Positions 13,651-16,006 of a stretch of 16,006 bases of DNA are shown here, piece after piece. Where the stretch lies: the NCBI GenBank assembly GCA_015657395.1, contig JADLKI010000002.1, positions 17,248 to 33,253 of the forward strand, in the 5' to 3' direction. How positions within the stretch are numbered: the first letter of the stretch is position 1; each line of letters starts with the position of its first letter. This DNA is from Spirochaetales bacterium (lineage in GTDB: Bacteria; Spirochaetota; Spirochaetia; Treponematales; Rectinemataceae). The translations under genes were made by a program, and so were the position numbers. The notes beneath the pieces are model-generated. The model saw nothing but the letters and a program-made list of their open reading frames with translations, ran no database searches and was not told the DNA's origin.

Positions 13651-14121
13651 ATGGGCAGAAAAAAGAAAGCGATTGACAGGGGACACGCCCCCGATGACAA
13701 GTACAATTCGACCACTATTTCCCGTTTTATTTGCCGAATGATGTGGCAGGGCAAGAAGTCGATCTGCACCGGCATCATGTATGATGCGCTCGAGCATCTG
13801 CAGCAGAAGTCCGGCCAGCCGGCCCTCGATGCCTTCAACAAGGCGCTCGAAAACGTAAAGCCCACCATCGAGGTGAAATCGCGCCGCGTCGGTGGCGCCA
13901 CCTATCAGGTGCCCATCGAGATCCGCGAATCGCGCCGCGAGGCGCTCGCAATGCGCTGGATTATCGGCGCCGCTCGGGCCCGCACCGGCAAGCCGATGTC
14001 CGAATGCCTCGCCGACGAACTCTTTGATGCCTTCAACAGCACCGGCACCGCCATCAAGAAGAAAGACGACATGCACAAGATGGCTGAAGCGAATAAAGCA
14101 TTCGCTCATTACCGGTGGTAA
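13651..14121 (+). CDS. rpsG: 30S ribosomal protein S7
   Basis: A 156-residue S7, which nucleates assembly of the 30S head and touches E-site tRNA. Typical segments are SRFICRMMWQGKKS, the beta-hairpin VKSRRVGGATYQVPIEI, ALAMRWIIGAARAR and the tail MAEANKAFAHYRW, identical in its last residues to E. coli S7. The ribosome-binding site GAGGTGAT is a near-perfect anti-16S match, 12 nt after the rpsL stop. The N-terminus (MGRKKKAIDRGHAPDD) is lineage-specific. The last codons and stop are part of a long hairpin and are copied twice downstream. Confidence 0.98.
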   Translation: MGRKKKAIDRGHAPDDKYNSTTISRFICRMMWQGKKSICTGIMYDALEHLQQKSGQPALDAFNKALENVKPTIEVKSRRVGGATYQVPIEIRESRREALAMRWIIGAARARTGKPMSECLADELFDAFNSTGTAIKKKDDMHKMAEANKAFAHYRW

Positions 14122-14133
14122 GGAGCGAATGCT
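14097..14133 (+). other. Long hairpin spanning the rpsG stop codon
   Basis: AGCATTCGCTC (14097-14107) pairs perfectly with GAGCGAATGCT (14123-14133). Inside, TTACC (14109-14113) pairs with GGTAA (14117-14121) around loop GGT; a single A/G mismatch separates the two helices. The stop codon TAA is within the inner arm. This is a 16-bp stem made partly from coding sequence. A further small stem, GCTCGC (14131-14136) with GCGAGC (14144-14149), competes with its base. Confidence 0.65.
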
Positions 14134-14242
14134 CGCTCTAGCCGCGAGCGCAGCGAACGGCGTTAGGCTAACAAGGCATTTGCCCATTACAGGTGGTAAT
14201 GCACAAAAGCGGGCCATAGGGCCGACGCAGTCGGATCGTTAG
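14129..14242 (+). CDS. Candidate small ORF after rpsG (37 aa)
   Basis: ATG 14129 follows TAAGGAG, which contains the rpsG stop and a strong Shine-Dalgarno match, but only 3 nt separate them. The frame ends at TAG 14240-14242. The peptide begins MLALAASAANGVRLTRHL and has many basic residues. It reads the second rpsG tail copy in another frame, so if that copy is a recombination remnant this ORF is probably accidental. No family recognised. Confidence 0.15.
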   Translation: MLALAASAANGVRLTRHLPITGGNAQKRAIGPTQSDR

Positions 14243-14259
14243 GCCAACAAAGCATTCGC
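14161..14259 (+). repeat. Two diverged 23-nt direct repeats of a 76-nt unit
   Basis: Positions 14161-14183 and 14237-14259 match at 20 of 23 bases; all three differences are transitions. Both begin CGTTAGGC and continue with YAACAA and GCATT. Upstream bases are also alike (GCGCAGCGAACGG at 14148-14160 and GACGCAGTCGGAT at 14224-14236). With the end of rpsG itself, which lacks CGTTAGGC, they form three units with periods of 78 and 76 nt. Confidence 0.75.
14167..14199 (+). pseudogene. Second copy of the rpsG 3' end (ANKAFAHYRW-stop)
   Basis: The bases translate as ANKAFAHYRW followed by TAA, exactly the S7 C-terminus, in the same frame as rpsG and 78 nt further on. A TAG (14164-14166) lies directly before it. 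Six bases differ from the true end and all six are synonymous. Its TAA also lies in a hairpin, CATTAC (14185-14190) with GTAATG (14196-14201). It is a fragment without its own start and should not be translated as S7. Confidence 0.75.
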
Positions 14260-14269
14260 ACACTTCAAA
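14243..14269 (+). pseudogene. Third, degenerate copy of the rpsG 3' end (ANKAFAHFK)
   Basis: The bases translate as ANKAFAHFK, shifted +1 relative to the rpsG frame. Changes against rpsG are four synonymous codons plus Tyr to Phe and Arg to Lys, both conservative. The Trp and stop codons are gone; the last codon AAA is the foot of the intrinsic terminator. It begins 76 nt after the second copy. Confidence 0.6.
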
Positions 14270-14295
14270 GGCCGCCCGCGTGGGCGGCCTTTTTT
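14267..14295 (+). terminator. Intrinsic terminator of the rpsL-rpsG unit
   Basis: GGCCGCCC (14270-14277) pairs perfectly with GGGCGGCC (14282-14289) around GCGT and is followed by TTTTTT (14290-14295). AAA at 14267-14269 can extend the stem with the first three T bases. This is a textbook Rho-independent terminator and isolates the EF-G-like gene from the ribosomal protein transcript. Confidence 0.93.
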
Positions 14296-14318
14296 ATTTG
14301 ATGTCCCCGAAGTATACT
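14290..14318 (+). promoter_or_regulatory. Possible promoter of the EF-G-like gene
   Basis: TATACT (14313-14318) is a good -10 box, but at 17 nt upstream there is only the terminator T-run TTTTTT (14290-14295). Transcription from it would begin near 14325, three bases before the chosen ATG, giving a nearly leaderless mRNA. No Shine-Dalgarno sequence precedes the ATG, which agrees with that reading. The -35 match is weak, so confidence is limited. Confidence 0.4.
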
Positions 14319-14327
14319 GATACTGCA

Positions 14328-16006
14328 ATGAATTCAAGGCACGCCTCCGATTCGCGGCCGTCGTTTCCCATCCGAAACATCGGCATTCTCGCCCACATCG
14401 ATGCCGGCAAGACATCGATTACCGAGCGTGTGCTCCACGTCGCGGGCGTGCGTGAACAGGCGGGCAATGTCGACGAAGGCACCACTGCGACCGACTACCT
14501 CACTGTAGAACGCCAGCACGGCATCACCATAAAGACCGCGGCCGTGCGCTTTCTGCACAAAGGTGTCCATTTCCATTTGCTGGACACCCCCGGCCACGTG
14601 GACTTCAGTGCGGAAGTCGACCGCGTCCTGCGCGTGCTCGACGGCGCGGTCATCGTGCTCTGCGCCGTGTCGGGCGTGCAGGTGCGCACGGGATTCATTG
14701 CGAGCGGATGCCGGGCACACCACATCCCGCGCATCTATTTCATCAATAAAATGGACCGCCGAGGGGCGGATTTCTTCAGGGCGCTGCAGGAGATTGCCGG
14801 AGAGCTCGGCGAGCCGGTGCTCCCGCTGCAGATTCCGACATTCGAGGATTACCGATGGAATGGGATCGCCGATCTTGTAGAGATGTGCTGGTATCCTGCT
14901 GCCGTCGGGTCCGGCATCCCGGACGCGCTCCCTGTCGGGAAGACTCCCCTGACCGAAGAATCGCGGCGTCTCATCGCGGAATACCGCGAAAAGCTCCTCG
15001 ACCGGGCCAGCATGTACGACGACAATCTGATGGAAAAGATCGTGGAGGGGAAGGCTGTATCTTCCGACGAGATCCGCGCCGCTCTCCGGGCGCCGATCCA
15101 CAGGCAGGAGCTCACTCCGGCCCTCTGCGGATCATCGTTTTCCGATATTTCGAGCGCGCTCCTTCTGGATGCGACGATCGATTATCTGCCTGATCCTCTC
15201 GCACGCGGCTGCCCCGTCGCCAAAGACCTGAAGAATGCGAGGGAGCTGAGGCTGGAAGCGGCGCCTGGCGCCCGGTTTTCGGCCTACATCTTCAAGACAG
15301 TGCTCAGCACCGATCTCAATGCCCTCGCGTGGCTCCGCGTGTGGTCCGGGACGATTCGGGAAGGCATGAAGGTCATGGCCATGCCCGCCAGGAAACTTGT
15401 CCAGATTCAGCATCTCTATGGCATAAACGGCGCTGAGGTCGAGCCTGTCCAGAATGCCGCAGCGGGCGACATAGTCGGCGCCCGTCTTTCCTATATGGAA
15501 GCGGGCGGCACTCTCTGCGAGCCGGGTCTGCAGATCGTCTACGAATCGTTCAAGAATCCCGACCCCCTCGTCTCCATGGCGATTGAGCCGGCCTCTCAGC
15601 AGGAGCTTCCAAAGCTGCGCGAGGCCCTGAAGCGGTTCAGCCTCGAAGATGCCTCGCTCTTGGTCAATGAAGAGAAAGAGACCGGCAGAATAACCATTTC
15701 GGGGCAGGGAGAGCTGCACCTCGATATTGTGCTCGAGCGCCTGCAGAAGGAATACGGCCTCCATATCCGTGCCGGAAATCCCGAGGTGCCCAAGGTGGAA
15801 CGGCTGAAGAAACCGGCTCGCTTTGAGGATGAGTTCGTGGGCGACTTCGGCGGCGAAAAATTGTCTGTCACTCTCGGGGTCTCGCTTGAAAATCTGAAAG
15901 ACAAGGAAGAGAATGCTCTTCTTCTTGCGGGCGGCATACGGATGTCTTCGGGCTACGAGGCCGGCATACACCGGGCGATGGAGACGGTGCTGGCCGTCGG
16001 GCCGAC
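14328..16006 (+). CDS. Divergent elongation factor G-like GTPase, N-terminal part
   Basis: 559 codons are visible and the gene runs off the window. The GTPase domain has G1 AHIDAGKT (22-29), switch I GTTATDYLTVERQHGITIKT (51-70), G3 DTPGH (86-90), G4 NKMD (140-143) and G5-like CGSSF (267-271). Domain II is around 316-405; domain III covers about 413-485 (LVSMAIEPASQQE, GQGELHLDIVLERL). Then it departs: the domain IV motif GGRGQ[YF]GHV is absent and the region 491-559 is hard to align. Usual EF-G has about 690-700 residues. The VDEGTTATD...ERQ segment resembles EF-G2 and Tet ribosomal-protection proteins, but a resistance role is not supported. It occupies the common fusA position, yet looks like a paralog rather than main EF-G. 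The start at 14328 lacks a Shine-Dalgarno sequence; ATG 14301 is an alternative. Confidence 0.85.
   Translation, partial: MNSRHASDSRPSFPIRNIGILAHIDAGKTSITERVLHVAGVREQAGNVDEGTTATDYLTVERQHGITIKTAAVRFLHKGVHFHLLDTPGHVDFSAEVDRVLRVLDGAVIVLCAVSGVQVRTGFIASGCRAHHIPRIYFINKMDRRGADFFRALQEIAGELGEPVLPLQIPTFEDYRWNGIADLVEMCWYPAAVGSGIPDALPVGKTPLTEESRRLIAEYREKLLDRASMYDDNLMEKIVEGKAVSSDEIRAALRAPIHRQELTPALCGSSFSDISSALLLDATIDYLPDPLARGCPVAKDLKNARELRLEAAPGARFSAYIFKTVLSTDLNALAWLRVWSGTIREGMKVMAMPARKLVQIQHLYGINGAEVEPVQNAAAGDIVGARLSYMEAGGTLCEPGLQIVYESFKNPDPLVSMAIEPASQQELPKLREALKRFSLEDASLLVNEEKETGRITISGQGELHLDIVLERLQKEYGLHIRAGNPEVPKVERLKKPARFEDEFVGDFGGEKLSVTLGVSLENLKDKEENALLLAGGIRMSSGYEAGIHRAMETVLAVGP

Follow-up and report, generated by a model that had tools for sequence, protein, structure and literature searches.

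Tandem copies of the rpsG 3' end in Rectinema-like spirochaetes, a probable protein-gene variant of tyrT/RtT-type repeats

The 3' end of rpsG is repeated in tandem behind the gene itself, both in the genome studied here and widely in its family. The array is probably a variant, on a protein gene, of the known but poorly understood repeats of the tyrT/RtT type. Its units share one layout and their stem covaries, the complete copies of the genus differ from their own gene by synonymous changes only, and the live gene end varies in a block-like manner. We hold it narrowly probable that the array, as a tyrT/RtT-like 3'-end repeat, turns over by hairpin-driven strand switching together with unequal recombination.

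Layout of the rpsG array and its stem

The window, the whole stretch of 16,006 nucleotides that was analysed, corresponds to positions 17248-33253 of contig C21 in G000, the genome of the studied DNA. Its 3' side is closed by rpsL, rpsG and an EF-G-like gene (Table 1). The initial annotation had described three rpsG tails in tandem, and the repeat search recovers them, with starts at 14089, 14167 and 14243 and spacings of 78 and 76 nt. Its account of the two downstream copies holds as well: A2 shares 27 of 33 nt with the rpsG end, stop codon included, its six differences all being synonymous, and A3 keeps ANKAFAH and reads HFK ahead of the terminator. Absent from it was an inverted, near-perfect copy of the tail, which spans and follows the stop codon.

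Table 1. Features of the rpsG locus, in positions of the window
Feature	Position	Strand	Evidence
rpsG, 30S ribosomal protein S7, host of the array	13651..14121	+	NCBIfam TIGR01029, 221.5 bits (cut-off 135.85); open reading frame
A1, live rpsG end (ANKAFAHYRW-stop), array member 1	14089..14121	+	sequence; repeat search
A1', inverted rpsG-tail copy pairing with 14097-14113, hairpin round the stop codon	14117..14133	+	17 nt, 94% complementary; DNA fold z -7.0; covariation over 13 units
X1, spacer module of unit 1, GAGCGCAGCGA type	14134..14166	+	alignment; fold no better than shuffles (z +1.8)
A2, complete second copy of the rpsG end, 6 synonymous differences	14167..14199	+	repeat search; codon comparison
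A2', inverted arm of unit 2, partly decayed	14196..14210	+	mismatched pairs; DNA fold z -0.8
X2, spacer module of unit 2, GGCCGACGCAGTCGG type, like those in G007 and G002	14211..14242	+	alignment; DNA fold z -1.7
A3, third copy, truncated, ANKAFAH	14243..14262	+	repeat search; codon comparison
Terminator-like hairpin and T run, 3' of the array	14267..14298	+	sequence; DNA fold z -5.5
EF-G-like translation GTPase gene, runs off the window	14328..16004	+	best NCBIfam matches are elongation factor G models, below cut-off on the partial protein

Each unit follows the same plan: A (the gene end), in some cases a terminator, A' (the inverted arm), X (the spacer module) and then the next A. The terminator stands between A and A' in some relatives, for example G001, G021 and G029. 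Unit length is 76-78 nt in 11 of the 13 units of the genus and 68 and 109 nt in the other two; the inverted arm at rpsG arrays is 15-17 nt long. The 22-nt core of X1 has a single place in G000 at up to 3 mismatches. We reject the idea that each copy is translated into a peptide of its own, since unit lengths of 68, 76, 77, 78 and 109 nt share no frame.

The tandem rpsG tails are beyond chance in G000. In a sample of 0.40 Mb (20 stretches and the window), 339 gene ends were compared with the 300 nt that follow them, and for none do the last 33 nt recur, ungapped, with 27/33 or more identical. The best reaches 25/33 at a poly-T end, and the next 21/33. This set excludes rpsG, because a longer antisense ORF shadows it, and the value for rpsG was taken from its own repeat search and the copy census. 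Mis-assembly of the window contig is excluded only indirectly, through the arrays in assemblies of other species. An Rfam search of positions 13900-14500 gave sub-threshold matches only. One of them, to MicX, lies on the minus strand at 14057-14304 (26.2 bits against a gathering score of 75, E 0.00097 in the 601-base search); it was taken as chance, and a MicX identity was rejected.

Covariation of the A/A' stem was measured over 13 aligned units, 11 from the genus and two from G024, with the structure taken from one of the sequences. Standard pairs fill 93.8% of the 192 cells, and 12 cells are unpaired. Both sides have changed in 18 cells, whereas shuffles give 6.4 and none of 500 reaches 18; one-sided changes are zero. 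Two of the five covariation measures lie within the shuffles, the double-change pairs (64/500 as high) and the pair types (318/500). No G-U state was seen among the changed pairs of the 13 units, which suggests that the inverted arm was copied from the tail as DNA.

The stem also bears on an explanation at the RNA level. The array would then be a structured tandem element of the 3' UTR that protects the mRNA 3' end, signals processing or acts as a protein sponge; its first stem would use the coding tail, and the copies would be kept by selection on the RNA. The array sits between the stop codon and the terminator and should therefore be transcribed. The conserved A/A' stem with its double changes fits this explanation, as do the RNA fold of the window array, which beats 200 of 200 shuffles (z -5.6), and the annotation of the E. 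coli counterpart as a small RNA. However, selection on a stem would permit G-U pairs, and none occur among the changed pairs. The unit 2 arms of G000 and G004 carry stem mismatches, yet their tail copies keep the coding sense, and the synonymous-only variation of the complete genus copies is left unexplained. We regard selection on such an RNA as a rather improbable cause of the array.

Coding sense of the copies and variation of the live tail

All seven copies of the genus that run to the stop codon keep 11 of 11 residues, and the 30 differences from their own genes are synonymous without exception (30/30). Six further copies are truncated heads, compared over their first six codons. Here the synonymous differences are 12/12 in G000, G001, G007 and G009 together, 3/8 in G003 and 4/6 in G006. 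Complete copies and truncated heads of the genus together give 49/56. In the initial annotation the fragments were read as ends of rpsG alleles that were once expressed. The complete genus copies bear this out and look like former rpsG ends, but the truncated heads in G003 and G006 have decayed.

Outside the genus most copies are damaged, and among ten only that of G024, a member of another genus, keeps all residues; it is identical to its own rpsG end. The full-length copies in G019, G022 and G025 have one, two and three residues changed, with synonymous differences of 0/2, 1/3 and 5/11. All full-length alignable copies, from the genus and from G024, G019, G022 and G025, give 36/46 synonymous differences. 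In G012, G021, G023, G027 and G029 the first codons of the copies are damaged, while the last five residues (AHYRW or AHYKW) and the stop codon are kept. A fixed 20-nt recognition core is ruled out by these five genomes, since their copies keep the last codons and lose the first ones.

As a null model, gene and copy were taken to mutate equally and the gene to retain synonymous changes only, which gives a synonymous chance of 0.32 per difference. The resulting P values are 2e-15 for 30/30, 2e-10 for 36/46 and 2e-17 for 49/56, to be read as indicative because the differences share ancestry and are not fully independent. These numbers weigh on the idea that the array is a plain tandem duplication now decaying, or an artefact of mixed-strain assembly. 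It would agree with the nearly constant period of the tandem units, with the damage to copies in other genera and with the Ns over the array stretch in G005 (below). Against it are the synonymous differences (30/30 in the genus, 36/46 with the others), direct copies in 16 of 27 classified genomes, species-specific sequences and the stem covariation. We reject a plain decaying duplication on the synonymous-only differences of the complete genus copies, and duplication and artefact taken together are very improbable.

The live tail itself is unusually variable. Among four close species, 8 of the last ten codons of rpsG are synonymously variable, compared with 53 of 120 elsewhere in the gene (Fisher p 0.045, Mann-Whitney p 0.0036). 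In the 19 genomes classed as carrying arrays, GC3 is 0.50 in codons 145-156 versus 0.74 in codons 1-144 (Wilcoxon 5e-5); in the 8 array-free genomes it is 0.76 versus 0.86 (p 0.08), and the drop differs between the two groups (p 0.011). When the 16 genomes with direct copies are set against the other 11, the difference has p 0.015, and those 11 drop too. No such drop at the gene end was found in 30 control genes. The tail thus varies synonymously in a block-like manner and at low GC3, as if it were swapped in blocks, and block replacement would account for both the hypervariability and the GC3 drop. Just upstream, codons 128-145 (about 14032-14085 in the window) show low synonymous divergence, 0.20 versus 0.43 for the whole gene in the genus. 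The value is 0.29 in other genera, and 0.45 versus 0.52 in Treponema and others. This quiet stretch is not specific to the array, because the weaker dip is seen in Treponema and others as well.

Distribution in the family and related loci at other genes

The rpsG tail array is not confined to one assembly and is widespread in the family. The family search covered 30 genomes of Rectinema-like spirochaetes and gave an rpsG match in 28; G008 and G028, without a match, and G005, with Ns over the array position, were left out of the classification. Rectinema subterraneum is one of the relatives. We classed 27 rpsG ends by eye, 19 with tail copies or inverted arms and 8 without. The copy census counts 21 direct downstream copies in 16 of the 27 genomes and, at its threshold, none in the 8 classed as empty. 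G006, G015 and G018 have inverted arms or decayed heads only, as judged by eye. Tail-copy number differs between Rectinema species (one genome per species).

A codon-degenerate scan of 81 loci found copies at 14, all of them family loci, and none at the 50 loci L093-L123 and L125-L143 of Treponema and others; in its control, shuffled regions pass the threshold in 1 of 50 cases at three loci and in 0 of 50 at the rest. The junction motif of the genus, at up to one mismatch, occurs in 2 of 392 Spirochaetota genomes, twice at the rpsG array of the window and once, with a mismatch, elsewhere. The draw held five family genomes, and because the other four family genomes in it do not have the motif, it marks the genus type and not the wider plan. 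In G005 (L071) a run of Ns covers the array position 3' of rpsG, a sign of assembly trouble or masking. Second rpsG 3' pieces with different tails were seen at contig ends, at L148 (start of G012:C61) and L144 (end of G015:C323); they probably come from other strains or species in the bins.

The X core of genus g13, used as a query, brought up dispersed relatives of the module. One dispersed core adjoins the 3' end of a gene in G023, which from its protein we take to be efp, and is accompanied by an inverted piece of that gene end. Among 21 core places away from rpsG, a direct copy of the upstream gene end exceeds all shuffles at three (L209, L210 and L224), namely a tRNA-Lys in G023, a tRNA-Leu in G027 and an ORF ending in EELWT in G019. 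L235 exceeds its own shuffles too, but by core repetition. At the other 17 of the 21 core places no gene-end copy stands above the shuffles, so the X core alone is no marker of a unit. A CCTAGCGAGCGAAGCGAGCGTT core was also seen inside ORFs at two similar places, L214 and L218 (G019:C182 and C189).

Further searches with two of these three tRNA and ORF places found tRNA-Leu, -Ala, -Pro and -Met loci. Behind tRNA-Leu, -Ala, -Pro and -Lys genes of relatives the order is A-A'-X-A, and each locus has its own A. The last 20 nt recur both inverted and direct, at 16/20 or better, at 8 of 9 tRNA loci compared, the nine having been selected for matching the module; the tRNA-Met locus L248 has the inverted copy only. 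L264, L252 and L250 carry tandem units in which the terminator is repeated too. In a sampling of gene ends, whose G019 and G012 stretches included contigs with already known matches, both copies at 16/20 or better were found for 3 of 42 tRNAs, compared with 2 of 1564 cross-pairs of different tRNAs (p 2e-4). The count is 0 of 15 for the tRNAs of G000 and 0 of 1404 for ORFs, a set from which rpsG is missing, shadowed by the longer antisense ORF.

The X modules at tRNA loci L264, L252, L249, L266 and L210 contain hairpins with a GGA loop, for example ACAGGATGT and CATGGATG. Below threshold, Rfam gives CsrC at L264 (E 0.012) and TwoAYGGAY at L252 (28.8 bits, gathering 43), both of clan CL00106. 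The GGA loops resemble CsrA-binding sites, and the X modules behind tRNA genes may possibly be tRNA-linked CsrA-binding RNAs. Hairpins and sub-threshold matches also speak for the RNA explanation of the array considered above; against that explanation, the nine tRNA loci give nothing but tRNAs at the Rfam gathering level, and the window stretch has sub-threshold matches only.

Some of the tRNA sites can be compared in filled and empty states. At tRNA-Lys, G023 has a filled site and its congener G011 one that looks empty. For tRNA-Leu(caa), filled sites occur in G019 and G027, and by eye the site looks empty in nine other genomes; the flank after the last G027 copy, TTGTCGTTTTT...CGGTGG, has a similar counterpart in G025 almost directly after the tRNA. 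A direct downstream copy of a gene's 3' end is a known footprint of integration, and integrative elements target the ends of tRNA genes and of rpsI, rplL and rpmG. The filled and empty sites bear on the interpretation first proposed for the window, serial site-specific integration. Elements bringing their own rpsG tail would have inserted at the gene end and lost their cargo, leaving the copies as vestigial att sites. In a variant, the units would themselves be mini-elements of at least 77 nt with no ORF, whose recombinase is encoded at another place and which perhaps move as folded single-stranded DNA. Besides the tRNA-Lys and tRNA-Leu(caa) sites, it draws on the direct 3'-end copies at rpsG and tRNA genes, the once-coding look of the displaced genus tails and the GC3 shift at the rpsG tail.

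Several observations go against integration. No island lies between the copies at any locus read, the check that the initial annotation had called for; in G012 and G019 the contig ends before the array does. No viral contig carries the degenerate 33-nt tail pattern (0 found), and the one tRNA unit that was compared is matched by neither plasmids nor phages. In the 30 family genomes, occurrences of the HYRW-stop motif outside rpsG are, where read, chance or a contig end. Unlike simple att leftovers, the units carry an inverted copy of the end of their own gene, and one element family could not bring along arms that are specific to each gene. Units of 76-78 nt (11 of 13 in the genus) are also too short for an ORF of note. 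The integron-integrase profile gives five matches at E <= 0.001 in G000, on C7 and C16, and none on the window contig C21. Because neither island nor phage copy was found, att sites of lost ICEs are unsupported, and so is the proposal of serial ICE or phage integration with lost cargo. We judge integration, in either form, to be unlikely.

A broader reading takes rpsG and the tRNA loci together. In Rectinema-like spirochaetes, and at one E. coli locus, a general unnamed process might attach hairpin modules to the 3' ends of tRNA, ribosomal-protein and other genes in the form A-[terminator]-A'-X-A, copying the host end in both orientations and in tandem. At rpsG this would amount to a reservoir of silent, still-coding ends, by which the live end is repeatedly replaced, block-wise and synonymously, by folded DNA. 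We offer this reading tentatively and consider it doubtful as a whole.

Turnover of the array and comparison with known repeat systems

The reading we prefer, turnover by strand switching and unequal recombination, can be put in steps. Strand switching at hairpins during DNA replication or repair would write the inverted arm, and would rewrite it whenever the tail changes. Slippage or unequal recombination between the tandem A copies would add and remove units. In this way a downstream A could become the live rpsG end and a live end a downstream copy. With units gained and lost between A copies, tails would be swapped between gene and array, and the copies would be former (or future) rpsG ends and not debris. 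Recombination with related strains probably has to supply tails as well, because the copies are intact yet differ at many wobble positions; slippage or conversion within one genome would hardly suffice, since the removal of non-synonymous changes should erase the synonymous ones as well.

This turnover has difficulties of its own. Synonymous differences reach between-species levels while non-coding copies stay intact. Tail import, or weak selection on the copies, could close this quantitative gap, and weak selection is conceivable because the copies may become the live end. Truncated copies cannot serve as an S7 end, yet they are synonymous-only in four genomes (12/12). X1 folds like its shuffles, and the unit 2 stem is weak (z -0.8). 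Further points against turnover are the damage seen in most copies beyond the genus and, in E. coli, an inverted arm of only 10 nt.

The closest known system is the 178-nt tyrT/tyrV repeat of E. coli, with its RtT (rttR) small RNA and tpr, reportedly first described by Egan and Landy in 1978. In the tyrV/tyrT locus of MG1655 the 3' end of tRNA-Tyr recurs three times, at 19/20 nt and with a period of 178 nt. As in the rpsG arrays, tandem units lie behind the gene, each ending in a copy of the gene's 3' end, and each unit contains an inverted piece of the gene end. This piece is weaker in E. coli, 10 nt compared with 15-17 nt: a scan at 13/20 found no inverted match, and unit 1 contains an exact inverted 10-mer, GGGGAAGGAT (any such in 5 of 2000 shuffled units), seen by eye in the next two units as well. 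The query is matched by 5,375 of 5,426 E. coli genomes. In 40 records sampled at even steps, the annotated RtT copies number between 0 and 6, with partial matches at the low end, so that copy number varies between strains of the species. The E. coli host is a tRNA gene, whereas the host here is a ribosomal protein gene, whose complete copies vary synonymously; relatives do have tRNA hosts. The Rfam RtT model has no match at E <= 1 in six spirochaete loci (two of them rpsG) or in 13900-14500 of the window.

To our knowledge, the E. coli repeats have so far stood as an odd single locus, and among the literature matches listed none deals with rpsG tail repeats or with such repeats in spirochaetes. 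A comparable plan at a protein gene throughout a family and at several tRNA genes of relatives would make the tyrT curiosity one member of a class open to comparison. The protein gene adds a clock that tRNA genes lack, in that its synonymous sites mark the complete copies as gene ends that once worked or that behave as if they do. The rpsG array also provides a natural setting in which to study strand switching driven by hairpins, and selection acting on spare gene ends.

Other repeat systems share parts of the plan. The att repeats of integrative elements likewise place a direct 3'-end copy downstream of a gene whose end stays functional, but at the rpsG array no integrase, cargo or island was seen, each unit has an inverted arm, and the units are short, tandem and several in number. 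REP/BIME and MIRU elements are palindromic or tandem intergenic units beside stop codons, as the rpsG units are, and MIRUs are about 77 bp long; they carry a sequence of their own, whereas the rpsG array repeats the end of the neighbouring gene. Integron attC sites and ORF-less cassettes are, like the array, short tandem modules with inverted repeats, and integrons occur in G000 and in the family.

This last likeness raises the question of whether the units are attC-like sites, as ORF-less cassettes that IntI would have placed at an attC-like rpsG tail. IntI exceeds its curated cut-off in 15 of the 30 family genomes including G000, and four attC sites of G000 begin with CTAACAAC and end with GTTAAGC or GTTAGGC, resembling the borders of the G000 units. 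However, of 13 unit ends only four, two each in G000 and G004, agree with the R' box GTTRRRY, and the unit starts read (A/G)GCNAAY and not R'' RYYYAAC, so that neither box is conserved in the units. IntI is also independent of the arrays, in 8 of 19 genomes with them versus 4 of 8 without (p 1), or 6 of 16 versus 6 of 11 when split by direct copies (p 0.45), and it is below cut-off in G009, the genus member with most copies. We reject an attC identity of the units on the box mismatch and the missing association with IntI, and we give an integron-related origin hardly any credence.

G000 has a chromosomal integron in its own right, with IntI over cut-off at C7:232265-233233 and the four attC sites at L183 (2822, 8091, 10815 and 15502). 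A 2013 paper (PMC3607928) calls Treponema the only spirochaete clade found with integrons; the 15 of 30 genomes with IntI over cut-off reported here belong to the Rectinema family.
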